NCBI RefSeq assembly: GCF_006912135.1
Contig: NZ_VIRS01000016.1
Location: 124,001 to 188,000 of the forward strand
DNA from: Cryptosporangium phraense
Lineage (GTDB): Bacteria > Actinomycetota > Actinomycetes > Mycobacteriales > Cryptosporangiaceae
Reading direction: 5' to 3'
DNA length: 64,000 nucleotides
Numbering within the stretch: position 1 is the first letter of the stretch; each line of letters begins with the position of its first letter. The notes under the pieces were generated by a model that was given only the letters and a program-made list of their open reading frames with translations, ran no database searches and was not told the origin of the DNA. This document shows, one piece after another, positions 11,250-46,788 of this stretch. The position numbers and the translations under genes were made by a program.

Positions 11250-11372
11250 ATGACCGTTACCGCCCACCCTCTTCACGACGGGGTGATCGCGGCCGACTTG
11301 AGCGTTGGCCCTCTCGCGGCTATCCGTGTGCTGTCCCGCGCAGCCACTGATCCGAGCAGGCCCCCTCGATGA
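11250..11372 (+). CDS. 40-residue peptide coupled to the MoxR-type ATPase
   Basis: A short ATG frame with a strong GGAGGCAGGC site. Its stop overlaps the ATPase start as ATGA. The peptide has no recognised motif. It may serve as a leader that lets ribosomes reach the ATPase start, which has no clear site of its own, or it may be a small protein. The overlap and the ribosome site support translation. Confidence 0.5.
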   Translation: MTVTAHPLHDGVIAADLSVGPLAAIRVLSRAATDPSRPPR

Positions 11373-12571
11373 CCGGCCCGACACCACCACCGACTCCCGC
11401 GTCCGCGACGCCGGCGACCAACGCCGGCGGACTCCCCAAACTGCGCCCGGGCCAGCTCCGCGCGCAGGTCCTGGCCCTGGCAGCCTCGGACCCGAGTGTC
11501 GAGTTGAGCGTCACCATCGCCGCCGCGCGCCTGGGTGGCCGATCCTCCGGAGCGGTCGGGGAAGCGTTCACCGCCCTGACCGACCACGGTCTGATGCGGC
11601 TGATTCCCGGCTCGCCACGCCGCTGGCAGATCACCCCCGATGGGCAAACCGCAGCTCAGCAGCAGGGTGCGGCGCCTCTCGTGACCGGAGCCGCACGGCG
11701 CCCCGGCTCCACTCCTCCGTCAGACCCCACACCGCCCGCTCCCACCCAGGCCGGTCCGAAACCGCCGCGCCCCGGCGCGGTCCAGCGGCCGGGCGGCTCC
11801 TGGTACTACCCCCGCGAGCTCACCGGCGGCCGCCTCGACGTCGACGTCCTGCGTGACCTGCGGGTCAAGCAGCTGCCGGTCCTGCTCTACGGGCCACCCG
11901 GCACCGGCAAGACCGCGCTCGCCGAAGCCGCCTACGGTGCCGATCTGATCACTGTCACCGGCACCGGCGACGCCACCATCGACGACTTCCTCGGCGGCTA
12001 CGTCGCCGAACCCGACGGCTCGTTCACCTTCACCTACGGGCCCCTGGTCGAGGCGATGCGCGGCGGCAAGGTGCTGTTCGTCGACGACGGCACCCTCATC
12101 CCGCCCCGCGTGCTGGCCGTGCTGTATCCGGCGATGGACGGCCGCGGCCGCATCACCATCCCCGCCTACCGCAACGAACCCGTCCACGCCCAGCCTGGGT
12201 TCTACGTGCTCTTCGGCCACAACCCCGGCGTCCACGGCGCCGTGCTCACCGAAGCGCTCGCCTCCCGGCTGCGCGTGCATATCGAGGTCACCACCGACTT
12301 CCGCCTCGCTGCCTCCCTCGGCGTCCCGCTGAAGGCACGAGAGGCCGCACTACGCCTCAACGAAGCCTTCGCCCGAGGGGAAATCGGCTGGGCGCCGCAG
12401 CTCCGAGAACTCATCGGCTTCCGCGACATCGCCACCGCACTCGGCCCGGACGCGGCCGTCAGCAACCTCCTGGCCATCACCCCCGAAGAAGACCGGCCCG
12501 TCGTCCGCGGCCTGCTCAGCAACGTCTTCGGCCACCCCGTCACACCGCTGACTCTCGGCGACCAGCGCTAA
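11369..12571 (+). CDS. MoxR/CbbQ-type AAA+ ATPase with N-terminal winged helix
   Basis: 400 residues. Residues about 20-95 form a helix-turn-helix-like region, then a Pro-rich linker. The AAA+ domain begins near residue 150: Walker A GPPGTGKT near 174, Walker B VLFVDDG (Asp-Asp instead of the usual Asp-Glu), then FGHNPG and the arginine-bearing ALASRLRVHIEV segment. MoxR-family ATPases act as chaperones together with VWA-domain partners, and the next gene encodes one. The Walker B change may slow ATP hydrolysis. Coupled to the 40-residue frame upstream. Confidence 0.8.
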   Translation: MTGPTPPPTPASATPATNAGGLPKLRPGQLRAQVLALAASDPSVELSVTIAAARLGGRSSGAVGEAFTALTDHGLMRLIPGSPRRWQITPDGQTAAQQQGAAPLVTGAARRPGSTPPSDPTPPAPTQAGPKPPRPGAVQRPGGSWYYPRELTGGRLDVDVLRDLRVKQLPVLLYGPPGTGKTALAEAAYGADLITVTGTGDATIDDFLGGYVAEPDGSFTFTYGPLVEAMRGGKVLFVDDGTLIPPRVLAVLYPAMDGRGRITIPAYRNEPVHAQPGFYVLFGHNPGVHGAVLTEALASRLRVHIEVTTDFRLAASLGVPLKAREAALRLNEAFARGEIGWAPQLRELIGFRDIATALGPDAAVSNLLAITPEEDRPVVRGLLSNVFGHPVTPLTLGDQR

Positions 12572-12597
12572 CACCCTGACCACCCGGAAGGACGCCC

Positions 12598-14415
12598 ATG
12601 GCGCCTCGCACGCCGCACGTTCATCACACCACCGGCCCCACCAGGCCCACCAGCCCCAGCGGCCCCGCCGGCCCCGGCGGCGCAACTAGCCAGAGCAGCC
12701 CGGGCGGCGCCGCTGCCGGCCCACCGCCAGTCCCACCGGTCCGGTCGGGCTGGGGACGCTGGTCGCAGGCCTGGACCCGGCAGGCACACATCCTGGCCGG
12801 TCGCACCGACCTCACCGTCACCGTCGCACCCGGCGCCGGTCACGGCTCACCCGCATGTTTCTTCCCCGCCCGGGCGGCCATCGAGGTCGACGCCGACCTC
12901 ATCGGCGACCCCACCGTCACCGACCCCCGCCGGCCCGGTCACAAAAAGACCGTGCCCACCGCTTACGGCGCCCTCGTGCATGAGGCCGCGCACGCCCGCG
13001 CCAGCCACTGGACCAGCCCGCCCGGAACACCACCAGTGCTCACCCTGGTCGCCGACCTCCTCGAGGAGTCCCGCGCCGAGAACCGCCAGCGCCGCTCCCG
13101 GCCCCGCGACAAACAATGGCTCCGCCACGCCGTCACCCAGATCATCGACACCAATGATGCCCCCACCGACACTCACTTCAACGCCGCCTACGCCGCCGGG
13201 CTCCTGCTCGCCCGCGTCGACGCCCGGATCCTCACCTCCGCCGACGTCACGAAAGTCCGCGCCGCGGTCACCCGCGTCCTCGGACGTCCACGGCTGCGGA
13301 AACTCCGGACGATCTGGCGCGCGGCTCTAGCCACCGGCGACACCGACGGGGCCGCAATGCACGCCCACGCCCGCGACTGGTGCGCCGTGCTGGGCATCGA
13401 CCCCGACCAGCAGCCCGCCATCCCCGACCCGAACGCCGGAACCAGCACCCGCATCGCCGAGGCCATCGCGGCCGTCCTCGACGCAATCGCCGGACGCATC
13501 CCCAGCCCCGGACCGTCAGAACCCGATCCGCCGGGTTCCCCCAATAGTCCCTTCCCCTCACCGCCTCCCAGCACAAGGGATTCCGGTACAGGGCATTCAG
13601 GTTCAAGGCGTTCCGGCACAGGGGATTCCGGTTTGGGGCATCCCGGCGCGAGCGTCACCGTCAGCCCGATCCCCGCGCGATGGACACCGCGCTCACCACG
13701 GCCCGCCGAGCAGCAAGCCGCCGGGCAGCTGGCCGCGCTGCTGCGCCGCGCGCGGACCCGCGAACCCGTCCGTACGCCCATCGCGACCGTAGTTCCTCCG
13801 GGCCGGCTCAACGCACGTGCCGCCGTTACCGCCGCTGCCCAGGCCAGTGCCGGGGCGTTGCCCACCGCGCAGCCCTGGCGCCGCACCGTGCAACGCCCCG
13901 CACCCGAACCCGAGCTGAAGATCGCCGTGCTCATCGACGTATCCGGCACCATGCGCGCCTTCGCGCCACCGATGTCCTCCGCCGCGTGGATCCTCGCGCA
14001 CGCCGCCGTCCGCGTCCACGCGGCCAGCACCACCATCGCGTTCGGACGGGCCGTCACCGTGCTCACCGCACCCGGGCAACGCCCCACGCACGTCCACGAC
14101 CTGCAGGCCACCGACAACGCGCACCGCTTCAACGACGCCGTCGCCGTCGCCGACCGCCTGCTCGGCCTCACCACACCCGGCGCCGCGCGGCTACTGGTCC
14201 TGGTCTCCGACGGACTGCTCCACGGCAACGGCATCCCCGAAGCCCAAGCCACCCTCACCCAGCTACTACACGCCGGCTGCGCGGTCCTGGTCCTCACCCC
14301 CGACACCGACCGAATCCACACCTACCCCGGCCCCACCACCATCCGCGTCGCCGACCCCGCCGACTGCGCCGCCCTCATCGGCCGCGCCGCCGCCCAGGCC
14401 CTCACCCGCCGCTAA
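12598..14415 (+). CDS. HExxH metallopeptidase-like plus VWA domain protein
   Basis: 605 residues. The N-terminal part carries HEAAHARASHW (HExxH at residues 128-132), as in the putative metallopeptidase domain paired with VWA in DUF2201-type proteins. A long linker with imperfect Ser-Gly-rich repeats (about residues 320-350) leads to a VWA domain whose metal site reads DVSGTM near 447, with LVSDG near 541. MoxR ATPase and VWA partners are normally adjacent, as here (26-base gap). Likely a MoxR-VWA remodelling or proteolytic pair. Substrate unknown. Confidence 0.75.
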   Translation: MAPRTPHVHHTTGPTRPTSPSGPAGPGGATSQSSPGGAAAGPPPVPPVRSGWGRWSQAWTRQAHILAGRTDLTVTVAPGAGHGSPACFFPARAAIEVDADLIGDPTVTDPRRPGHKKTVPTAYGALVHEAAHARASHWTSPPGTPPVLTLVADLLEESRAENRQRRSRPRDKQWLRHAVTQIIDTNDAPTDTHFNAAYAAGLLLARVDARILTSADVTKVRAAVTRVLGRPRLRKLRTIWRAALATGDTDGAAMHAHARDWCAVLGIDPDQQPAIPDPNAGTSTRIAEAIAAVLDAIAGRIPSPGPSEPDPPGSPNSPFPSPPPSTRDSGTGHSGSRRSGTGDSGLGHPGASVTVSPIPARWTPRSPRPAEQQAAGQLAALLRRARTREPVRTPIATVVPPGRLNARAAVTAAAQASAGALPTAQPWRRTVQRPAPEPELKIAVLIDVSGTMRAFAPPMSSAAWILAHAAVRVHAASTTIAFGRAVTVLTAPGQRPTHVHDLQATDNAHRFNDAVAVADRLLGLTTPGAARLLVLVSDGLLHGNGIPEAQATLTQLLHAGCAVLVLTPDTDRIHTYPGPTTIRVADPADCAALIGRAAAQALTRR

Positions 14416-16297: not shown

Positions 16298-16651
16298 ATG
16301 GCACGCAAGGTCGAAGTTCTTCTCGTTGACGACATCGACGGCAGTACCGCCGAGGAAACCATGACGTTCAGCCTCGACGGCACCAACTACGAGATCGATC
16401 TCTCCGCTGACAACGCCGGAGCGCTACGAGACGAACTCGCACGCTACGTCGCCGTCGCCCGCAAAACCGGGAAATCGACCGGTTCCGCGCGGGCCCGCGC
16501 CGCCGCGGCACTTCCGAAAGCCCCGATCGGGAAAGCCGACCGGGAACAGAACCAGGCCATCCGCGACTGGGCCAACCGCAACGGCCTCCAAGTCAGCGCT
16601 CGCGGCCGCATCCCCGCAGACGTCGTCGAGAAATACCACGCTGCTAGCTAG
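16298..16651 (+). CDS. lsr2: Lsr2 nucleoid-associated protein, island copy 1
   Basis: 117 residues, the full family length. The N-terminal dimerisation domain ([31 protein letters not shown]) and the C-terminal DNA-binding domain ([24 protein letters not shown]) are intact, including the RGR minor-groove hook. Lsr2 bridges and silences AT-rich foreign DNA. A copy on an island can hide the element from the host or replace host Lsr2. A second copy lies at 39225. Confidence 0.95.
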
Positions 16652-17294: not shown

Positions 17295-18671
17295 TCAGCG
17301 GCTTATTGCTGCTCGAAGAGGAACGGTCCAGTCCAACTCGGTGCCCCCACCGTCGGCTTCGAGGAGTTCCAACTCGCCGCGCCAGCGCTGGGCTCGGGCG
17401 GCCATGTTGGCTAGGCCGCCGGTCTGTGGACGTTCCGCAGGCAGGCCAATTCCATTGTCAATGACAGACAATGTCAACAGCATCCGGGCGGGGTCGACCT
17501 GGACCGACACATCGACCTCTGTGGCTGCGGAATGCCGGGCGGCGTTCGAGAGTGCTTCTCGTAGGGTGGCGGTCAGGTCTCGTTCCAGTTCGGTCGGGAT
17601 GTCGAACTGGCGCCCGTTGCGATCGTCGGCCGCGCTGTTAAGGGCGTCGTCGATGACGACGGTTGGAGCGAAGCCCAACTGTCGGGTGTAGTCGGCCACG
17701 CAGTGCCTGATCGCTGCGGCGATTGTTTCTGTCTCCTCGTTAATGTCCAGCGCTAGCACAATCGCGCGGAGTTCGCGGTTGGCTTCGTCGATCCGGCGGG
17801 CCAGCTCGTCCCGCCGACGGAGCGCTTCCGGGCCTTCTACGGGGAACTCGCGGAATTCTAGGCTGATCGTAAATAGTCGCTGGCTGACCACGTCGTGAAG
17901 GTCGCGTGCGATGCGGCGGCGCTCGTCGCGTACGGCGTTCTGCACGTCGCCCGCATTGGCCGCTGTGTGCTGGGCATCGGTGGGTGCGGGCGGGTCGGGA
18001 GGCCGGTAAAGATAGCCGACGTCGCGAACGCTTGCGATGACGGCGCCACCTAGTGGGGTGCGATCCAGCTTCAGCCGCAGGCGCGAGATCGTGGACTTTA
18101 GCTCTTTGCTGTCCGCGAGGCGGCTAAGTTCGGCGGTGCGGAAGATGTGTGAGGGATGGCGTGCTAACCGGTTCAGGATGGCGAATTCCGCATCGGTCAG
18201 GCGCAGCGGTTCGCCGGCAACGTGCGCGGCAGCCAAGCCGGGATCGAGCCGGAGGACGCCGTCTTCGTAGACCTGGTCCGCCGCTCTAGCCAGGCGGCGC
18301 GTTCTTTTCATGACGGTCTCGATACGCGCGACCAAGACCTCGAGAGAGAACGGCTTGACGAGGAAGTCGTCTGCGCCGGACTTGAGTAGGGCCACGATTT
18401 CGCGTTCGGAGTCGCGTGCGCTCGCCACGATGATCGGAAGGTCCGCAAACGCGCGAATCATCCTCAGTAAGTCGGCTCCGTCGAGATCGGGGAGTCCGAG
18501 GTCCAGCAGGACGACGTCGTACTGCTTCGTCGTCACCGCTCGCAGGCCGGCCATCGCGGTGCCGGCGGCGTCAACGTCGTAGCCATATTCAGTTAGCCTT
18601 CGCACGATCACACTGCGGATGGTGTGGTCGTCCTCGATGTAGAACACACGGGTCTTCATCGCGGCGCCCAT
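17295..18671 (-). CDS. orphan fusion: OmpR-type response regulator plus HisKA_3 histidine kinase
   Basis: 458 residues (or 454 from the second Met). Residues 6-121 are a receiver domain with E13/D14/D15, phospho-acceptor D57, S84 and K106. Residues 135-223 are an OmpR/PhoB winged-helix (LRLTDAEFAILNRLA, then VIASVRDVGYLY). Residues 247-310 are a HisKA_3 dimerisation domain with H259 in RRRIARDLHD. Residues 360-452 are a HATPase with N376, DNGIG at 405-409 and GGGTELDW. There is no sensor or membrane segment. All catalytic residues are kept, so one soluble chain could autophosphorylate, pass phosphate to itself and bind DNA. HisKA_3 kinases normally pair with NarL-type regulators, so this domain pairing is odd. 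No partner gene is next to it. Confidence 0.9.
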   Translation of the reverse strand: MGAAMKTRVFYIEDDHTIRSVIVRRLTEYGYDVDAAGTAMAGLRAVTTKQYDVVLLDLGLPDLDGADLLRMIRAFADLPIIVASARDSEREIVALLKSGADDFLVKPFSLEVLVARIETVMKRTRRLARAADQVYEDGVLRLDPGLAAAHVAGEPLRLTDAEFAILNRLARHPSHIFRTAELSRLADSKELKSTISRLRLKLDRTPLGGAVIASVRDVGYLYRPPDPPAPTDAQHTAANAGDVQNAVRDERRRIARDLHDVVSQRLFTISLEFREFPVEGPEALRRRDELARRIDEANRELRAIVLALDINEETETIAAAIRHCVADYTRQLGFAPTVVIDDALNSAADDRNGRQFDIPTELERDLTATLREALSNAARHSAATEVDVSVQVDPARMLLTLSVIDNGIGLPAERPQTGGLANMAARAQRWRGELELLEADGGGTELDWTVPLRAAISR

Positions 18672-19256
18672 TCGTTGTCAACCGTTTCGGTGTATCTACC
18701 GTCGCTGGCGGTGACGGACACTACAAGGTTCTGCCACCAAGGTCGCAGAACCTCCCGCGGCCCGGGCCACTCCGTCGGTGCCGCAGACCGCGCAAGGACT
18801 GTCGGGCATGGAGCACGCCTGGCAAATGTGGCTAACCTCGATGGCGTACGCAGCCGAGTTAACCCCCGGGTATGTCGGAGACCTAACGGCTGATCCCCAC
18901 CGGGCCCGGCGGCCCGGTCGCGCAACTCCACGACGCCGGCGCCCGCCGAGCCGCCCGTACCGCTAACGGGCGCCGCGCCGCCAGCCAGCAGCTACCGCCC
19001 CTCGGCCAGGGCCCCACCACCGCAACAGCACCACCGTCGCCGTCGACCCGCAGAAACACGACACGCACCTGCGCCCGCCGACAGCCCACTGGCGCCCATC
19101 GGGCCTCGAACCCGCCACACCGGCAACCGCGCGAACTTGACTCCCCAGCACAAGTGGAGCGTCCATCCATCCCGCCGCCCGGCCCGGCCGCCCACACCCG
19201 ACGGCCGGACCGGGCAGCACTCGGCACCTCACTCAACGCCGACCGGAGACGCTGCC
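18672..19256. other. gap upstream of the regulator-kinase, no recognised gene
   Basis: About 585 bases. It holds an inverted repeat at 18727-18752 and part of a degenerate duplicated segment from about 18990 on. No credible frame before 19257. Confidence 0.45.
18727..18752. promoter_or_regulatory. inverted repeat upstream of the regulator-kinase
   Basis: GGTTCTGC and GCAGAACC, an exact 8-base pair separated by 10 bases, lie 56 bases upstream of the minus-strand start at 18671. The winged-helix of the encoded protein could bind here. That is inference. Confidence 0.35.
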
Positions 19257-19922: not shown

Positions 19923-20297
19923 TCAATCCTCGTCAAGGCCCGCGGGGAGGGTGATCGTGTGGGTGTAGTAGCCCGGAAGGTGGTCGGTCCAGGTCGTGGG
20001 CTCGGGACGCACGGTCCAGGGACATTCCTCATCCGGCCAGGCCGGGATAGGGGTCTCTCCGTCGTCGCCGTCGAAAAGCCGACCGTAGGGGATCCGGGAT
20101 GCTGCCCCGGCCCCAATTACGCCAAGGGGACGGGCCGGCACAATCCCGAGTTCCGGTCGTCGATCGCTTCGGCTAGGACGTAGAACGTGTGCCGCGAGCT
20201 GACCGCGAAGATGCGGCCCGGCCGCCCCGGCCACAAGTTCACCGGCCGGCCCGCCACCCAGCAGCTCCACCGGCACCGACCACCAGTCACCCGTCAT
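19923..20297 (-). pseudogene. broken copy of the pRiA4b ORF-3-like gene
   Basis: The start (WWSVPVELLGGGPAGEL) and end (PYGRLFDGDDGETPIPAWP, TDHLPGYYTHTITLPAG) match the intact gene at 21191-21826. After residue 24 the frame shifts, so the expected RIFAV-x-x-RHTF region is read as HLRGQLAAHVLRPS. About 80 central residues are then deleted, joining straight to LGIVPARPL. It is a decayed tandem duplicate. Confidence 0.75.
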
Positions 20298-20364
20298 GGC
20301 TGCTGATTGTGCCGCGAGGTGACGGGCCAGAGCGTCCCGCCAGCTGCGACGGCGAGGGAAGCAG

Positions 20365-20394
20365 CCGAGCCCGCGCGAGATCGCGCGGGCTCGG
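20365..20394 (-). terminator. strong palindromic terminator-like hairpin
   Basis: A 14-base exact stem (CCGAGCCCGCGCGA with its complement) around a two-base centre, 17 bases past the stop of the minus-strand gene at 20411. No T-run follows, as is usual in actinobacteria. Confidence 0.65.
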
Positions 20395-20410
20395 CGTCGG
20401 ATTGGACCGG

Positions 20411-20740
20411 TCAGGCTTCGAGGGTGTGTGCCTGTCGGACAGGCTCGAGTGCAGTGCGCAAGGCGGCGGGATCGATGACGGCGCTGGTACCCGCCAGGCC
20501 CAGTTGCGCCGCGATGCGCCTGCCGTCATCGGTGAAGTAGAGCCAGAAGTCGTAGTCCAGCGCCCAGGTTCCCAGGCAGCGGACGCACGCGGTCTGGAGG
20601 TGCTCGCAGAGGGCCGAATCCGCAGTGGGGATGCTGGTCGATTCGCCCTCAAGGTGGGCGTAGAGGCCGTTGTGGCCCTCGGCCGGCGGGCGGTCTTGCC
20701 GGTTGAGGTCGCTACCGAGTCCGGCTTGCTGAAGTGACAT
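20411..20740 (-). CDS. hypothetical protein of 109 residues
   Basis: Not recognised. Residues 44-55 carry three Cys (CEHLQTACVRC), possibly a metal site, followed by WALDYDFWLYFTDDGRRIAAQLGL, which looks like folded alpha/beta sequence. The ATG is preceded by an AGGA site. It lies between the intact and broken pRiA4b-like genes in the same direction and ends in a strong hairpin. Confidence 0.5.
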   Translation of the reverse strand: MSLQQAGLGSDLNRQDRPPAEGHNGLYAHLEGESTSIPTADSALCEHLQTACVRCLGTWALDYDFWLYFTDDGRRIAAQLGLAGTSAVIDPAALRTALEPVRQAHTLEA

Positions 20741-21190: not shown

Positions 21191-21826
21191 TCAATCGTCG
21201 TCGTCGACGTCTGCGGGCAGGCTGAGCGTATGGGTGTACTGGCCCGGACAGTGATCGGTCCGCACCGTCGGCGCAGGTCGCCCGGTCCAGGGCCAGTCAT
21301 CGCCCGGCGGCGCCGGAATGGGTGCCTCACCGTCGTCACCGTCGAACAACCGCCCATAGGGATCCGGGATGTATCCCCAGCCCCAGTACGCCAGGGGGCG
21401 GGCCGGCACGATCCCGAGCGCGGTCTCCGGGTCGAGCGGTCCGTCGCCGATTACGCAGCGATGGCGCCAGTTGTCCCCGAGGTCGAAGACATACCCGAAC
21501 TCGTCGCCGAGACCTAGCAATGCCTCCAGCCGCACATGGTCAGCGTCGCGGTACCGGTCCGGCTCGTAGTCCTCGAGGTACTTCAGCTCCGTGACGTAGA
21601 GATCGTCGTAGTGATCGCCTCCAGCTGGGCTTGCCGCGGCGGGCACGGTGAACTCGTGCAGGTGGCTGCGGTCCCAGCGGGCGAACGCGTCGTCGATCGC
21701 CTCGGCGAAGACATGAAACGTGTGGCGCGGATTGACCGCGAAGATCCGGCCAGGCCGCGGCCACAACTCGCCCGCCTGGCCGCCGCCCAGGAGCTCCACC
21801 CGCACCGACCACCAGCTGTGCGTCAT
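21191..21826 (-). CDS. pRiA4b ORF-3-like (IS1096 TnpR-like) protein
   Basis: 211 residues from the ATG at 21826. WWSVRVELLGGG, RHTFHVFAEAIDDAFARWD, HLHEFTV, YVTELKYLEDY, FGYVFDLGDNWRHR and the C-terminal tail match the plasmid pRiA4b ORF-3 family, which is common on plasmids and mobile elements. A role in recombination was once proposed from IS1096 linkage but is not established. A frame-broken paralogue lies downstream at 19923. Confidence 0.75.
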   Translation of the reverse strand: MTHSWWSVRVELLGGGQAGELWPRPGRIFAVNPRHTFHVFAEAIDDAFARWDRSHLHEFTVPAAASPAGGDHYDDLYVTELKYLEDYEPDRYRDADHVRLEALLGLGDEFGYVFDLGDNWRHRCVIGDGPLDPETALGIVPARPLAYWGWGYIPDPYGRLFDGDDGEAPIPAPPGDDWPWTGRPAPTVRTDHCPGQYTHTLSLPADVDDDD

Positions 21827-22109
21827 GCCGCTGATTGTGACGCCGCAGACCGTCACCCGCGGGGCGGTCGACGGGGCCGTCTGGTGCTCCGCGCACACCG
21901 CTGCAGCCGCCGATCGGCGGCTGCCGCCCCTGGTGTGGCGAGGTCGCCGCCCAGCTGACCCGCTGGCGGGCGGAAACCCCGACCGGCTGCCGGTTACTCA
22001 CGTCCTGGGAGCCGGGACGGTCGGCTCACCGCGGCTGGCCGCGGCGATCCCGGCGCCGCCTGACTAGCCGCCCTCGCATCGCGCCTTCCGCCCCAGGTCA
22101 AGGCCGTTC

Positions 22110-35008: not shown

Positions 35009-38000
35009 CTATGCCTCGAACAGCACGCTCGTGACGATCGTGGCTGGATCGGTCAGATATCCCATCCTGTGTAGGAGGTACGCGGCAGCCGACAGAAACT
35101 GGCGGGGCCCGGGAAGGTGACGGGCCGCAGCTAGTTCGGCCACTCGGGACAGTCCGGCCTTGACGTCTTCCGTTGGCGGGTCCGGCGCAAAGCCGTACAA
35201 CGCGATGGTCGTCATCCAGAGAACGGCCTCGTTGGGGTCATCGGAGAACGCGAGGCTCAGACCTTCCATGGCCGCGTACTGCCAGCCGATCAGGGCTTCA
35301 GGCCGGTGCTCGCTGACGTGCTGGTAGATAGCGCGTAGGTCGGCGAAGGGGGTGTCGGCCCATGCCCACCAGGCCGGGCGCGTGAGCAGAACGGCGGAGG
35401 CGGCAGGTTGCCACTCGTCGGCCTGTGCCTGGGCGAGGAGGTCATCGAGGGAGGCCGGAACGTCCACGACATAGTCCGCCACCATCGCGCGGACGAGCTG
35501 GTGTTGGCGGTCGGTGAGATCCCGAATCCTGTCGTCGCTGCCAGGACGCGTCGGATCATCGAGTTCGATCGCGATGCTCGTCAGTTCTTCAGTGAGAGCT
35601 GCCGTGCTGAAAGCAGGCACTCCGACGGATCGGGCAAGCTGTCGGAGCGCGACGTCGTCACTCCAAAATGACCACTGTTTGGTCTTGGCGAGTTGAAGTG
35701 GTGCCAGCCAGGAGCCGAATAGCTCGGGATCGAAGTCGCCGAAGTCGGGTAGGTTCACGACCCGGTCGAAGACGAGATCGCATGAGGATGCTTCGAGCGC
35801 TGCGGCGCGGCGGAGCAGTTGGAGGCGGTCGGCCGGGGTCATCGGGTGGAAGACGAGTTGCTGGCGTTCGTCGTCCCACCCGAGGCTGCCGACGCTGGCG
35901 GCATTACTTCGGGCATGGATGACGGATTGCAAGATGTCGGCGCGCGACACGGCCGGCAGATGCACGATGGAGAACCTGCCGGCGAGATCAGTGCCGCCGG
36001 GGAGCTGGCTGGAGACCATGAGCGCTGACGCGTCTACGACGACCGGACGGTTCAATGCGTCACGGGCCGCCTGGTGGTCGAGGTCATGTTGTCCGTCATC
36101 CGCGGCGGCGGCAATTTGTACGCCCGCGGCGCGTTGGATTAGCACTAGGCCATAGGGCAGGCGCAACCCCGTCGCCAGCATCCCGAGGGGCAGGCGGCCG
36201 AGTCGGATAGCGCGAATGAGGTCTGTGGCTATCCGCGGGTCCGCCGTGGATTGCACGGTGGCGGTGATCTCGTCGGCCAGGGTCTCGATGGGTCCGTCGA
36301 ACTTGCGTGCCCCAAGGTCGTCCCCGTGCCGGGCGATCAGGCCGTCCAATGCCTGGAACGCCGCAGCGTACAGTTCGTCGGGAACCGCTGCCGCCGCAGC
36401 GGATGTCGTGGATCGCCTGGCGGCAGCCGCGTGGTCATCGTCGGGGTCAGAGTGCGTGTGGACATCCAGGAGCTCTGGGCGTTCGGCGGTGGCGCGTTCG
36501 ATAATCGCCATCAGCAGCGCTCGGGCCAGGTTCGGGGCCTTATCCCGGAACTGGCTCGCTAGCGCGTAGGCCTGACTGGCGTCCTGGTCGGTCCACGGTT
36601 CGGTGGCGAATGCCTGGAGCCACCAATGGCCGTGCGTGGGGGTGAGGACGGATGGGTGGTGGTCGTGGAGCAGCGCGGCGGCTCGGTTGGGACGAAGTTG
36701 GACAAGTTCGGCGGCTACGCGTAGCCAGATGACGTCCGCCGGTGGGTCCGTGGTGAGCGTGAGCAGGGTGCCGGTGTGTCGCTCGGCGGCGGCACCATCG
36801 CCGGAGTGGATTGCGCGCAGCGCAAGGAACCGAAGTAGCCGGGCCCGTTCGACATGGCCGAGGTGCCCATCGGCGAGCGCGATGTGTGCGGCCTGTTCGG
36901 CCTGGCCAAGGCGATCAGCCTCTTGGAGTACCTGGACTCGGTAGGCCAGGAAGATCGGACGGTGCAGCGAGTGGTACGCGGCGTCACACGCGTCGAGGGC
37001 CTCGTCGTAGCGATGGGCGGCGCGGAGCTCGCGGATCAGCATCAGAGCTGCGTTCGCGTTCGTCTTGCTCAGTCCCCGCAACGACGGCAGAGCCGGGTCC
37101 AGCTCGCGGACTGCAGCGGCCACGACGGTGATGCGCTGCGGCACGTCCGCGGAGATCAGCGAGCGGCGAACCAGAGGATCCAGCCGTGCCGCAGCGTCGA
37201 CTCCGAGACCGGAGAGGTTCTCGACCGCGCGCAGGATGCCGGTGAAGTCGTCGGTCGCCTCCGCTTCGTCCAGCGCCGCGGTCCACAGGCGGATCTGGTC
37301 GTCGCGGGGCAACGCGGTGTCGTTGATCCTCGCGGCGAGCAGCTGGTCGGCGGGTGCATCGCCGAGTTGCTCGGCGAGCGCCACCGCAAGGTCGTGCTGG
37401 CCCAGTTCGTGTGCTGCCTCGGCTGCGTGTCGACGCACGTCGGGGCGCTCTGCCTCTTCGATCCGCGCGACGCCGTGCGGCGCAGCGAGTGCGTAGCGCA
37501 AGACCACGTCCAAATCTCCGGACAACACGTGGATCTCGAGCAGCTTGTCCAAATACCCATCAGTAGCGCCGGCCCATCGATGACGCTGCTCGACGGCGTG
37601 CCTCATTAGTTCGCCCGCCCGCTGGAGGTCGTCGGCGTGGGCGCACGTACTCAGCGAGCGATGCAACAGGGCTTCGGCAAGCAACTCCATCGCGTCACTG
37701 CCATCACGATCCAGCTCCAATGCGCGTGTCGCCCGGACGACCGCAGCGTCCCATTCGTGCGACCGTAGTGCGTGCCTGGTCAGGATGGCCTGAACAGCGT
37801 GGTCTGAGCGAGCTGCGGGAACGTCGAGGTCGAGCCCGGACGGCAGCTCCCACGGCGCGGCGTTCCCTGACGGTTGCGCCAGGATCGCCCGTATCAGCGC
37901 AACCACCAACTCCGTGCCGGGGAGGCCGGCTGCGCGATCAACCAGTTGATGGGCGCGGTCCCGATCGAGATCCAGCAGCGGCAGGACCGCGGCGAGAAGC

Positions 38001-38767
38001 AGGCGCCCCTCGCGCTCCGGGTCCGCCGCTGCGGCGCGCTCGAACGCCTCCGACCCAACCGCCATGGCACCGTGTTCGACGCCAAAGCTGGCGACCGCTC
38101 GCCAGGCGCGTGCCGCGTCACGGATCAGCCATATCGGCGCCATAGAGAGCAGAGCCCGGCAGGTCTCGGTCGGCTGGCTGCGGCCGTCAGCCAGATGAGC
38201 CGCGAGGACCGCGGCGTCACCGGGTGCGCTGTCATGCAGCTCGGCCAGGATGGCCGCAGTGGACGGGGGCAAGACCGTCAACAGCTGCTCGTACCGCGTC
38301 CGGGAATCTCGCTCGATGCCGCTGGCGATGTGATCCCACTCGTCGGCCGCGTCGCTGACGCACTGTCGTTCCGGGACGACGATCTTGTAGCCCTTGCCGG
38401 TCGGCTCCACCGTTCCTGGCGTGAATTGTTGCCAGTACCCTCGCTGCGTCTCGATATCGACGAGCACAATCAACACCGGTAGCGCATGCCCAAGCCATAG
38501 ATGGAAATGAGCTTCGTCGAACCGGAACACCCAGCCGTCGGCGGTGCGTTCGCCGAAGAAGCTCGGACCGGCCTTGATCTGCAGGGCAATCAGACGCCCA
38601 GTCTGCCGGCCCGCCGAGTCCCGCGCCTCAACGTGCGCATCGATCCCCGCGTCCGATGTCGCCTGCTCCCGGAACACCCAACGCAGATCGCGCACGACCA
38701 ACGTGTTCAGGATTGAGACCCCGAGCCGCCCCGTGCCCTCGCGGTCCAGCCCTGCAGCCCCCACCAC
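35009..38767 (-). CDS. DUF4365 nuclease-like - TPR - PIN domain protein, candidate defence protein
   Basis: 1252 residues. The N-terminus (residues 10-120) matches DUF4365, a PD-(D/E)xK-like domain: E34, GID at 41-43 and QIK at 63-65, then WVFRFDEAHFHLWL and VLIVLVDIE. A helical repeat region, TPR-like, fills about residues 170-800 (repeated RxxALxLxxxGxDA-type helices). A PIN-like ribonuclease domain lies near 905-1060, with PVVVDASALMV and WSDDVALRQLARSVGVPAFS holding acidic residues. A helical tail follows. This resembles TPR-GreABC-PIN-type conflict proteins, but with an added DNase-like domain. Single gene, no ATPase beside it. Confidence 0.75.
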   Translation of the reverse strand: MVGAAGLDREGTGRLGVSILNTLVVRDLRWVFREQATSDAGIDAHVEARDSAGRQTGRLIALQIKAGPSFFGERTADGWVFRFDEAHFHLWLGHALPVLIVLVDIETQRGYWQQFTPGTVEPTGKGYKIVVPERQCVSDAADEWDHIASGIERDSRTRYEQLLTVLPPSTAAILAELHDSAPGDAAVLAAHLADGRSQPTETCRALLSMAPIWLIRDAARAWRAVASFGVEHGAMAVGSEAFERAAAADPEREGRLLLAAVLPLLDLDRDRAHQLVDRAAGLPGTELVVALIRAILAQPSGNAAPWELPSGLDLDVPAARSDHAVQAILTRHALRSHEWDAAVVRATRALELDRDGSDAMELLAEALLHRSLSTCAHADDLQRAGELMRHAVEQRHRWAGATDGYLDKLLEIHVLSGDLDVVLRYALAAPHGVARIEEAERPDVRRHAAEAAHELGQHDLAVALAEQLGDAPADQLLAARINDTALPRDDQIRLWTAALDEAEATDDFTGILRAVENLSGLGVDAAARLDPLVRRSLISADVPQRITVVAAAVRELDPALPSLRGLSKTNANAALMLIRELRAAHRYDEALDACDAAYHSLHRPIFLAYRVQVLQEADRLGQAEQAAHIALADGHLGHVERARLLRFLALRAIHSGDGAAAERHTGTLLTLTTDPPADVIWLRVAAELVQLRPNRAAALLHDHHPSVLTPTHGHWWLQAFATEPWTDQDASQAYALASQFRDKAPNLARALLMAIIERATAERPELLDVHTHSDPDDDHAAAARRSTTSAAAAAVPDELYAAAFQALDGLIARHGDDLGARKFDGPIETLADEITATVQSTADPRIATDLIRAIRLGRLPLGMLATGLRLPYGLVLIQRAAGVQIAAAADDGQHDLDHQAARDALNRPVVVDASALMVSSQLPGGTDLAGRFSIVHLPAVSRADILQSVIHARSNAASVGSLGWDDERQQLVFHPMTPADRLQLLRRAAALEASSCDLVFDRVVNLPDFGDFDPELFGSWLAPLQLAKTKQWSFWSDDVALRQLARSVGVPAFSTAALTEELTSIAIELDDPTRPGSDDRIRDLTDRQHQLVRAMVADYVVDVPASLDDLLAQAQADEWQPAASAVLLTRPAWWAWADTPFADLRAIYQHVSEHRPEALIGWQYAAMEGLSLAFSDDPNEAVLWMTTIALYGFAPDPPTEDVKAGLSRVAELAAARHLPGPRQFLSAAAYLLHRMGYLTDPATIVTSVLFEA

Positions 38768-41429: not shown

Positions 41430-43133
41430 ATGGCACGCCGATCACGCCCGGCAAGGACGACGACCCTGTCTCTGCCGATCACCCATCAGCGGGTCGCCAC
41501 CTACACCCGTTGCTCCACCGATGAAGAGAACCAGCCGTTCACCATCGAAGCCCAGGACACCAAGCTCGACGCCTACGCCTCGTCGCAAGACGGCTGGTCC
41601 GTCGTCGCCAAATACACCGACGACGGCTCGGGCGGAACCCTCGACCGCCGCGACCTCCAACGCGCGATCGCCGACGCCAAGGCCGGCAAGTTCGACGTCT
41701 TGCTCGTCTACCGCGTCGACCGATTCAGCCGCCGAATCCGCGACCTGGTCTGGCTCCTGGACGAGCTCACCTCCGCCGGCGTCACCTTCCGATCGGCCAC
41801 CGAGCCCTTCGACACGGCCACTCCAGCGGGCCGAATGCTCGTCCAGATGCTCGGGGTCTTCGCCGAGTTCGAACGCGAGATGATCATTGATCGGGTCATC
41901 AACGGGATGGAACGTAAGGCCAGCCGAGGCCAATGGACGTTGAGTACTCCACCAGAGGGGTACGTCGTCGATCAGGCGACCCAGTGCCTGACCCCGATCT
42001 CCACAGAATCCCCAAACATTACGAACATATTCCAGCAATACACGACTAAACGGCGCGGCGCCCGGGCGATTGCCGCGGATCTCAACAGCCGCGGCATGCG
42101 ACGACGCAGCGGGCGGCCCTGGAGCCACAAGACCGTCATCGATGTCCTCACGAATCTGGCCTACGTCGGCACGGTCGCCTTCCGCGACATCTACGTGGAA
42201 GACGCTCATCCGCCGCTGATCCCACCCGAGGTCTTCGCCCTGGCCCAGGAAATCCTCGTCGAACGCAGCGAACATCCTGCGAAATTCGCCGGCGCGGCTT
42301 CCGACTACTACCTGAGCGGCAAGATTCGCTGCCCTCGATGCGGCCAGACTTACCTAGGAACGTCTGCCACCGGCAAGTACCGCCAATACCGCTACTACAC
42401 CTGCTTTACCCGCAACCGGTACGGGACGGAGAGGTGCGGCGCCCCACGGATCCAAGCCGACGCCTTCGACGAGATAGTGCTCCAGGCGTTGGGCACCTTC
42501 TACCGCACCCGAACCGACCTGATCAACGACGCGCTCCGCGCCACCCAGGAACACCACCGCGCCGCAGTGGCCGGCAGCGAAGCCGAACTCGCAACGATCA
42601 AGGCTCGGCTCACCCAGAAAGAACTCGTCGTCGACCGCTACTTCACCGACTACGAGGCCGGGCGCCTCGACCACGATCTTCTTCGAACCCGGATCGAGAC
42701 ACTCTCCGAAGAACTCACCGAGCTCCGCCGCCGGCGCGATGAAATCCAGATCCAGCTCGACAACGCGCCTCCGATGATCAGCCCCCGTGAGCTCGAGACC
42801 GCCGCCGCATGGATCACTGACATCATTCGGGACGGGGACCACCCGCGCCGCAAGGAACTCTGCGACCTTCTCATCGACGAGTTGCAGCTCGACTTCAAGG
42901 CGGCCACTGCGACACCGGTTTTTCGTGTCCGAGCCGGAGACCTCGTCCCGGAAAGCAACGAAGCCCCGGCCAGTACTCTGGCCGGGGCGAATCAGGCCAG
43001 CTCACGCGGTGTTCGCGAGCATCAACCTCGGGTGGAGCTGAGGGGACTCGAACCCCTGACCCCCACACTGCCAGTGTGGTGCGCTACCAGCTGCGCCACA
43101 GCCCCGTCCGGCCCGTTCCGGACCGACTGCTGA
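41430..43133 (+). CDS. large serine recombinase (site-specific integrase)
   Basis: 567 residues. The resolvase domain carries the nucleophile S29 in YTRCSTDEE, then YRVDRFSRR and FEREMIIDRV. The recombinase domain follows (GARAIAADLNSRG, VLTNLAYVG), then a zinc ribbon with CPRCG near 300 and CFTRNRYGTERCG, and a coiled coil near 360-450. The last 25-30 residues (ELRGLEPLTPTLPVWCATSC and on) are the antisense of tRNA-Ala. This shows that the integrase gene crosses the attachment site and takes its stop from host DNA. A GGGAAGGAG site precedes the ATG. Confidence 0.95.
   Translation: MARRSRPARTTTLSLPITHQRVATYTRCSTDEENQPFTIEAQDTKLDAYASSQDGWSVVAKYTDDGSGGTLDRRDLQRAIADAKAGKFDVLLVYRVDRFSRRIRDLVWLLDELTSAGVTFRSATEPFDTATPAGRMLVQMLGVFAEFEREMIIDRVINGMERKASRGQWTLSTPPEGYVVDQATQCLTPISTESPNITNIFQQYTTKRRGARAIAADLNSRGMRRRSGRPWSHKTVIDVLTNLAYVGTVAFRDIYVEDAHPPLIPPEVFALAQEILVERSEHPAKFAGAASDYYLSGKIRCPRCGQTYLGTSATGKYRQYRYYTCFTRNRYGTERCGAPRIQADAFDEIVLQALGTFYRTRTDLINDALRATQEHHRAAVAGSEAELATIKARLTQKELVVDRYFTDYEAGRLDHDLLRTRIETLSEELTELRRRRDEIQIQLDNAPPMISPRELETAAAWITDIIRDGDHPRRKELCDLLIDELQLDFKAATATPVFRVRAGDLVPESNEAPASTLAGANQASSRGVREHQPRVELRGLEPLTPTLPVWCATSCATAPSGPFRTDC
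42963..42988 (-). terminator. hairpin inside the recombinase gene, terminator-like for tRNA-Ala
   Basis: An exact 11-base stem (GCCCCGGCCAG with complement) around TACT, 45 bases past the 3' end of the minus-strand tRNA-Ala. It is within the recombinase coding sequence near residue 515. Confidence 0.6.
43033..43105 (-). tRNA. tRNA-Ala(GGC), integration site
   Basis: 73 bases with the full cloverleaf: acceptor GGGGCTG/CAGCTCC, D arm, anticodon arm CACAC-TGGCAGT-GTGTG type with GGC anticodon, T arm GGGG-TTCGAGT-CCCC. CCA is not encoded. Its 3' end faces the island and overlaps the end of the recombinase. Confidence 0.95.
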
Positions 43134-45108: not shown

Positions 45109-46788
45109 CTAGTTTGACCCCTCTTCGGCAGCCCGAGCCTCCGCCCGAGCGGCGTCCACGCCCGACTGCGTCCGCAGTGGGATCTCCTTGATGAGGAACG
45201 CGAGCACGATCGCCACCACCATGATCGCCGCACCCAGCAGGAAGACCTGATCCACCGCGTCGGAGAATCCGACGAAGAACGGCTTCGCCAGCCGTTCGTC
45301 CAGCTGGTTGATGAACGACGAGTCGTCCAGCGCGCCGCCGAAGCCGCTCCCGGACGACAGCTGCTCGACGAACCGCTGGTTGGCCGGGTCGGCCAGCACC
45401 TGCGGATCGTGCAGTGCGGCCTGGTACGACGGCGTCGGCACGATCGTCGAGAACGCCGAGCCGATCTTCGTCCCGGCCTGGCTGAACAGCACCGACAGGA
45501 ACACCGCGGTGCCGAGCGTCCCGCCCATCTGACGGAAGAACGTCGAGGACGACGTGGCCACGCCGATGTCGCGCGGGGGCATCGCGTTCTGGACCGCGAG
45601 CGTCACCGGCTGCATCACGTTGCCCAGCCCCAGCCCGAAGATCGCCATCACGATGCCGGTCTGCCAGAACGGCGTGTCCCAGTGCACCTGGCTGAACGCC
45701 AGCAGCCCGACCGTCATCAGCACCGTGCCGATGATCGGGAAGATCTTGTACCGGCCGGTCCGGGAGATCAGCTGGCCGGAGATGATCGAGCCGGTCATGA
45801 TCCCGGCGGTCAGCGGCAACAGCAGCAGGCCGGCCTGGGTCGGCGACGCGCCCTTGACGATCTGCAGGTAGAGCGGCAGCGCCGCGAGCCCGCCGAACAT
45901 CCCCATGCCGGTGACGAGCGCGACCAGCGACGTCGTCGTGAACACCGAGTTCCGGAAGAACCGCAGCGGGATCAGCGCGTCCTCGCCGCAGCGGCGCTCG
46001 GCCAGGATGAACAGCACGAGGCCGATGGCCCCGATCACGAAGCACACGATCGAACGCCCGGAGCCCCAGCCCCAGATCCGGCCCTGCTCGGCCACGATCA
46101 GCAACGGCACCAGCCCGACGACCAGCGCCAGCGCGCCCGGCCAGTCGATCCGGTGCTCACGGCGCTGGTGCGGGATGTTCAGCACCCGCATGACGATCAT
46201 CAGCGCCACCAGCCCGATCGGGACGTTCACCAGGAACACCCAGCGCCAGCCGGAGACCCACAGGATCGTGTCCTGGCCCGCGAACGTTCCCCCGATCACC
46301 GGGCCGAGCACGCTCGACGTCCCGAACACCGCGAGGAAGAACCCCTGGTAGCGGGCCCGCTCCCGGGGCGGCACGATGTCGCCGAGGATCGCCAGCGCCA
46401 GGCTGAACAGCCCGCCCGCGCCCAGCCCCTGCACGGCCCGGAACGCGGCCAGTTCGTACATCGACTGCGACGCCGCCGAGAGCGCCGACCCGACCAGGAA
46501 CAGCCCGATCGCGCCCAGGAAGAACGGTTTCCGTCCGTAGAGATCGGAGAGCTTTCCGTAGAGCGGGGTCGTGATCGTCGCGGTGATCAGGTACGCGGTC
46601 GTCGCCCACGCCTGCAGCGACAGGCCGTCGAGGTCGTCGGCGATCGTCCGGATCGACGACGCGACGATCGTCTGGTCGAGCGCCGCCAGGAACATGCCCG
46701 ACATCAGTCCGGTCAGGATCAACAGGATCTGCCGGTGCGTCAGCAGCGTCTCCGACGCTGCTTCCACGGGCTTCGACGGCGCGGCCAT
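45109..46788 (-). CDS. MFS drug/proton antiporter, DHA2 (EmrB/QacA) type
   Basis: 559 residues with about 14 hydrophobic segments. MFLAALDQTIVASSIRTIA, LYGKLSDLYGRKPFFLG and the motif C region VLGPVIGGTFA are diagnostic of 14-TM DHA2 exporters. A long extracytoplasmic region lies near residues 440-500. The start follows the MarR stop by nine bases, so the pair is an operon. Probably exports a hydrophobic compound sensed by the MarR protein. Confidence 0.9.
   Translation of the reverse strand: MAAPSKPVEAASETLLTHRQILLILTGLMSGMFLAALDQTIVASSIRTIADDLDGLSLQAWATTAYLITATITTPLYGKLSDLYGRKPFFLGAIGLFLVGSALSAASQSMYELAAFRAVQGLGAGGLFSLALAILGDIVPPRERARYQGFFLAVFGTSSVLGPVIGGTFAGQDTILWVSGWRWVFLVNVPIGLVALMIVMRVLNIPHQRREHRIDWPGALALVVGLVPLLIVAEQGRIWGWGSGRSIVCFVIGAIGLVLFILAERRCGEDALIPLRFFRNSVFTTTSLVALVTGMGMFGGLAALPLYLQIVKGASPTQAGLLLLPLTAGIMTGSIISGQLISRTGRYKIFPIIGTVLMTVGLLAFSQVHWDTPFWQTGIVMAIFGLGLGNVMQPVTLAVQNAMPPRDIGVATSSSTFFRQMGGTLGTAVFLSVLFSQAGTKIGSAFSTIVPTPSYQAALHDPQVLADPANQRFVEQLSSGSGFGGALDDSSFINQLDERLAKPFFVGFSDAVDQVFLLGAAIMVVAIVLAFLIKEIPLRTQSGVDAARAEARAAEEGSN

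Follow-up and report, generated by a model that had tools for sequence, protein, structure and literature searches.

Domain architecture of the fused gene and its shortened winged helix

The DNA analyzed here, a stretch of 64 kb which is referred to as the window, carries on its minus strand a gene (17295-18671) encoding a response regulator and a histidine kinase in one chain. The gene opens with ATG and closes with TGA, and an in-frame ATG at residue 5 is an alternative possible start. The order of the domains is Response_reg, Trans_reg_C, HisKA_3 and HATPase_c, and all four exceed the curated Pfam cut-offs. The gene and its parts are as follows:

17295-18671, minus strand: fused response regulator/histidine kinase gene, 458 aa (Pfam, ORF)
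18318-18647, minus strand: receiver domain, residues 9-118 (Response_reg, 91 bits, cut-off 30.2; Pfam)
18009-18215, minus strand: OmpR/PhoB-type winged helix, divergent, residues 153-221 (Trans_reg_C, 34.9 bits, cut-off 26.2; Pfam)
17925-18005, minus strand: Pro/Ala-rich linker from winged helix to kinase, residues 223-249 (sequence, model)
17748-17924, minus strand: HisKA_3 dimerisation/phosphoacceptor domain, residues 250-308 (36.6 bits, cut-off 24; Pfam)
17601-17630, minus strand: insertion of 10 residues (348-357) compared with aligned DevS-like kinases (alignment)
17313-17585, minus strand: HATPase_c domain, residues 363-453 (45.1 bits, cut-off 26.4; Pfam)

The original prediction had described one soluble chain of 458 residues with the catalytic residues D57, K106, H259, N376 and DNGIG, and all of these lie where it had placed them. 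Besides D57 and K106, the receiver contains the acidic pair D14/D15 and S84. In the HisKA_3 domain, the phosphoacceptor H259 is followed by DVVSQ (260-264), which corresponds to the DxxxQ motif, while the N and G boxes of the HATPase_c domain are represented by N376, DNGIG (405-409) and GGLANM (418-423). The proposed mix of OmpR and HisKA_3 modules in one chain also held, as Trans_reg_C and HisKA_3 are both above cut-off and the HisKA_3 match was kept in the Pfam profile search (36.6 bits against 24). In agreement with the predicted lack of an input domain, Pfam found no known sensor domain, including GAF, in the fused protein; the best 19-residue Kyte-Doolittle mean is only 1.24, and a membrane segment is therefore not expected.

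In HisKA_3 kinases, the DxxxQ motif has a phosphatase-type role. The protein could have the output of an ordinary regulator, with a kinase core that is chiefly a dimerisation module and phosphatase; D57 would be loaded by a different kinase or by a small phosphodonor and reset by the DxxxQ core. The kept phosphatase-type motif (D260-Q264) and the lack of a known sensor to drive a kinase argue for this explanation, but the ATP-binding motifs N376, DNGIG and GGLANM are kept too and would be needless for a pure dimeriser, and we consider it unlikely.

The winged helix is shortened, which is a new detail absent from the original prediction and alters the expected output. Between the EF anchor in helix 1 and the LR.K[LM] anchor in the recognition helix there are 41 residues, compared with 48 in 12 of 12 related regulators, several of them near-identical orthologues. 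These distances were taken from alignment A3, which contains the 12 regulators and only three kinases and was also used for the structure model; it was chosen because alignments A1 and A4 misplaced the C-terminal parts of the regulators. By Pfam, 69 residues cover 76 positions of the Trans_reg_C profile in the fused protein, compared with 75 residues covering 75 positions in the regulator L012, and the score of 34.9 bits compares with 82-93 bits in three stand-alone relatives. The shortening was located as follows:

18125-18128, minus strand: site of the missing seven residues, placed by the alignment after residue 182; covers the end of helix 2 and the next loop (alignment, model)
18063-18110, minus strand: predicted recognition helix, residues 188-203 (model)

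In the model, helix 2 comprises residues 179-182 only and is followed by the helix 188-203. The model of the fused protein has a mean pLDDT of 75 and a pTM of 0.36, with confidence below 50 at residues 228-242 of the linker; due to this low overall confidence, local structure alone was used and domain packing is not reliable. Modeling of the isolated winged helix from its single sequence gave a result too poor for use (mean pLDDT 51.7). The overall shortness of the winged helix is not unique, since some solved OmpR-type chains (e.g., BasR and VbrR) align over an equal net length.

In the OmpR/PhoB family, the loop after helix 2 is the transactivation loop, which touches RNA polymerase. As this loop is mostly missing, the fused protein more likely represses than activates. 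Judged from the sequence, classical activation by the fused protein is doubtful, and if it binds DNA at all, binding without classical activation, i.e., repression, is expected. With its divergence (34.9 bits), the winged helix may also fail to bind DNA.

Genomic setting

The fused gene stands alone and is convergent with an Lsr2 gene at 16298-16651. HisKA_3 kinases normally have a partner regulator gene close by, usually of the NarL type. Here, no second two-component gene was found with Pfam among 40 further ORFs of the window, and custom receiver, winged-helix and kinase profiles detected no other receiver or kinase when run on the 647 stop-to-stop ORFs of the 64-kb window that are 60 aa or longer, which bears out the earlier claim that no partner gene is nearby. 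HisKA_3 was found at 60 places in this genome. A separate receiver ORF is present in 53 of the 60 stretches around them, and the stretch of the fused gene is one of the seven without such an ORF; some of the stretches share sequence, and the end of a stretch or contig truncates some ORFs (e.g., L093 and L096).

Along the fused gene, GC3 is 0.80 in the receiver, 0.74 in the winged helix, 0.79 in the linker, 0.72 in HisKA_3 and 0.72 in the ATPase part. Values of 0.92-0.96 were obtained for four genes to the right in the window (ftsX, ftsE, prfB and an MFS gene) and of 0.76-0.90 for five ORFs in its left part. GC3 of the fused gene is thus fairly even and unlike that of the core genes, which is consistent with one acquired gene.

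Synteny with the congeners G001 and G002 ends at a tRNA-Ala gene (43031-43105), over which a large serine recombinase ORF (41430-43133) ends; a third congener, G003, has this recombinase in common as well. Left of the tRNA-Ala gene, no match of more than 300 bp to the congener stretches was detected (60 kb of G002, 40 kb of G003 and less than 4 kb of G001), and the G002 sequence beyond the synteny break has its best match in another contig of this genome. The synteny break, together with the lack of congener matches leftward, identifies the region as a variable island; its left end was looked for and not found. Control of this island by the fused protein, as suggested in the original prediction, gained no support.

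Several further features of the window were recorded. On the minus strand, 35009-38767 encodes a protein of 1252 aa with DUF4365 and the PIN domain of the TPR-GreAB-C-PIN system; PADLOC gave a 68-bit match to a nuclease model of an Argonaute system, and this is a possible defence gene. At 11369-14415, a MoxR-like AAA ATPase adjoins a VWA/CoxE-like protein. A PRiA4_ORF3 family gene (21191-21898, minus strand) is adjoined by an ORF (19923-20297) which by eye resembles a piece of a second copy; a GC-rich palindrome with perfect arms (20364-20395) is located between these PRiA4-like ORFs, and 20411-20740 is without Pfam match. An MFS transporter gene (45109-46788) lies beside a MarR gene; the transporter stretch of about 1.7 kb is unaligned in three congeners, while the MarR gene and the stretch on its other side do align in them.

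Origins of the two halves and occurrence of the domain order

Sequence comparisons suggest that the fused protein is an OmpR-type response regulator joined to the catalytic core of a DevS/DosS-like HisKA_3 kinase which lacks the GAF sensors. An OmpR-type regulator present in every one of the four genus genomes searched (L012, L015, L017 and L022) shares about 45% identity with the regulator half. The kinase half shows about 40-45% identity to its best matches among kinases elsewhere in the order, with the best seven candidates per genome being scored; blastp on these loci gave 39-42%. Within the own genome, the highest-scoring further kinase reaches 31% identity. All 29 best loci besides the window (L026-L054) contain a kinase ORF. 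With the window protein as phmmer query, a receiver match within the same ORF was obtained for none of these 29 kinase ORFs, and 12 of these loci hold a separate receiver ORF, with flanks of about 1.5 kb being covered and some kinase ORFs reaching the locus edge.

GAF domains were present in all six kinase relatives scanned with Pfam, and the kinase half is closest to proteins of the type GAF-HisKA_3-HATPase_c. Among the 60 plasmid matches listed for this half, 19 are annotated as GAF-domain proteins, and many of the others are NarX or unannotated. The best solved chains were M. tuberculosis DevS, a GAF-domain protein and DosT, each matching through the ATPase part, followed by DesK, which matches through the HisKA_3 part.

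At only one of the 60 HisKA_3 places of this genome, the fused gene itself, do a receiver and a winged helix precede the kinase. In L096 (G000:C1:391500-396500), the only other HisKA_3 protein here with a receiver in the same ORF, the receiver follows the kinase.

Whole-protein queries were passed by the own genome alone in the samples of the order (397 genomes, E 1e-46) and of the class (394 genomes, E 1e-44), and that of the phylum (336 genomes, E 1e-43) yielded just two further matches, both regulator-only; the best four candidates per genome were scored in these samples. Among 61 relatives (E 1e-40, up to 27 candidates per genome scored), 11 genomes matched, and all matches but the fused protein were confined to the regulator half, with none extending past residue 256. 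A query spanning the junction of winged helix and kinase returned only itself from 197 genomes (E 1e-8, up to 19 candidates per genome). The genome samples overlap, so that the counts are not additive, and with the strict whole-protein and junction cut-offs a very distant fusion could be missed. Within these limits, the original prediction of an uncommon arrangement was not refuted, as no second protein of the same order occurred in the sampled genomes.

Using short exact patterns, which reach only close relatives, no full-length relative was found on genome contigs or viral contigs. No plasmid place covering 80% of the fused protein was present among the 5000 matches listed, and no such phage place was found (152 records matched); neither a plasmid nor a phage origin is therefore supported for the protein as a whole. 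PADLOC gave a 23-bit match alone, through residues 6-72. Two candidate relatives were rejected: L010, on a Nitrospirae contig, matched residues 12-452 and turned out to be a separate kinase and NarL-type regulator rather than a fusion, and the match of L009 is confined to the receiver. The possibility that the fusion is an artefact, caused by a lost stop where two neighboring genes meet, was also rejected, as the kinase half lacks an N-terminal sensor and HisKA_3 follows the winged helix after only about 27 residues. Finally, the order receiver, winged helix, HisKA_3 and ATPase was not met in passages of the open-licence PubMed Central literature, including those of PMC3018481, PMC4603909, PMC12471899 and PMC8612252.

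The fused protein is thus an intact-looking, rare rearrangement of common modules. The original prediction had pointed out that regulators usually follow the kinase. The receiver-first order itself, however, is already known from LvrB and other Rec-controlled kinases; it is the position of the winged helix, lying between receiver and kinase, and the OmpR/HisKA_3 mix that are unusual.

The lack of relatives in the sampled genomes, the loss of seven residues in the winged helix and a GC3 below that of the core genes measured would all fit a recent or decaying chimera without useful function, located in a variable region. On the other hand, the frame of 458 codons is open and the catalytic residues of both modules are intact, although the halves differ by about 55-60% from the nearest relatives found; we assign a low probability to such a chimera.

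Possible function and relation to known systems

Upstream of the fused gene, one further feature was analyzed:

18726-18753, no strand: imperfect palindrome of 28 bp, possible operator (arm pairing)

The inverted repeat noted in the original prediction is present, with an extent of 18726-18753 instead of 18727-18752. Its arms are AGGTTCTGCCACC-AA-GGTCGCAGAACCT, with 12 of 13 arm positions pairing and a spacer of 2 nt, and it is located 54 bp upstream of the start of the fused gene. In simulations of the 429-bp upstream stretch, such a palindrome occurred in one of 200. The window contains 30 overlapping palindrome rows of this strength, compared with 1-8 in five simulations; strong palindromes are thus common in the window, so that the 28-bp one is not unusual as a class and is not necessarily an operator. 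Another regulator could use it, or none at all. Exact arms of 9 bases with 8-12 bases between them occur once in the genome, and a regulon is therefore not visible. RNA folding of the stretch is no better than that of many shuffled versions (z -1.43). Direct repeats, rather than palindromes, are the usual binding sites of OmpR-type proteins.

The fused protein is best interpreted as a soluble one-chain two-component switch, which would probably act as a repressor. Internal phosphotransfer combined with repression at its own promoter is the most likely reading, and we put it forward tentatively. We infer that the kinase core would form a dimer and autophosphorylate H259, from which the phosphoryl group would pass to D57 of the tethered receiver. 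The high local concentration caused by tethering would make the OmpR/HisKA_3 mismatch tolerable, and the DxxxQ motif could also take the phosphoryl group off D57. The dimer would keep two winged helices together, an arrangement suited to a palindrome. The candidate site is the one of 28 bp, located 54 bp upstream of the own start, and repression would affect the own gene and perhaps its neighbors. The input would be intracellular, for example the ATP level, a binding partner or DNA binding itself. It is very unlikely, though conceivable, that DNA is the input in the sense that, with the DNA-binding domain placed between receiver and kinase, occupancy of the own palindromic operator gates the kinase, which would result in a self-contained bistable or autoregulatory circuit. 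Against the switch stand the lack of a relative of the fused protein in the sampled genomes and the origin of its receiver and kinase from families not normally paired.

Alternatively, the protein could be a Rec-controlled kinase like LvrB: another kinase would load D57, the receiver would control the attached kinase, and H259 would donate to a separate regulator, with the winged helix as spacer or DNA anchor. Receiver-first soluble kinases are an established kind, as described for LvrB in passages of PMC13269768. Other kinases and receivers are numerous in the genome, the winged helix is divergent, and in a fold search the LvrB structure 8vc9 was found at ranks 30-37 with 485-492 columns, though it superposes poorly (TM-score about 0.25, rmsd about 30). 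However, the winged helix and the linker of about 27 residues break the helix path from receiver to kinase, so that coupling of the LvrB type cannot work in the same way, and the window is without a partner gene. This alternative is unlikely.

According to passages of PMC3018481, citing Cock and Whitworth, the occurrence of transmitter and receiver in one or in two proteins depends both on transmembrane sensors and on outputs that bind DNA. The fused protein is directly relevant to this dependence: it is a soluble pair in one chain, has a DNA-binding output and shows an order that did not occur in the samples searched. If active, the soluble one-chain switch would serve as a small test, provided by nature, of whether mere tethering enables a receiver and a kinase from different families to cooperate; it would also be a compact part for synthetic circuits.

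Compared with stand-alone OmpR/PhoB regulators, the fused protein shares receiver and winged helix with L012, L015, L017 and L022 at about 45% identity, but its winged helix is seven residues shorter after helix 2 and a kinase is attached to its C-terminus. The solved chains nearest to the kinase half include DevS and DosT of M. tuberculosis (3zxo and 3zxq), which match in the ATPase part; unlike the DevS/DosS type, the fused protein has no GAF domain, no separate receiver gene in the window and an insertion of 10 residues before the ATPase domain.

Nearest in kind are the HTCS of Bacteroides and the LvrB-type Rec-controlled kinases. In HTCS, a single chain contains the kinase, the receiver and the DNA-binding domain, and the kinase dimer tethers two DNA-binding domains; passages of PMC11253607 state that this tethering permits promiscuous pairing of HK and RR. 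The fused protein likewise has a kinase and a DNA-binding regulator in one chain. However, HTCS possess a membrane sensor and carry the regulator with an AraC-type domain behind the kinase, whereas the fused protein has no membrane segment or known sensor and shows the order receiver, winged helix, HisKA_3 and ATPase. LvrB is portrayed in passages of PMC13269768 as a Rec-DHp-CA kinase activated by phosphorylation of Rec, in which helix 5 of the receiver runs unbroken into the kinase helix, and as the prototype of Rec-controlled kinases, which are described as frequent. As in LvrB, an N-terminal receiver and a C-terminal DHp-CA part are present in one chain of the fused protein; LvrB is described without a DNA-binding domain and with the receiver helix leading directly to the kinase, whereas here the winged helix (153-221) and the linker lie between them. 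The fused protein therefore shares traits of HTCS and LvrB and fits neither definition.
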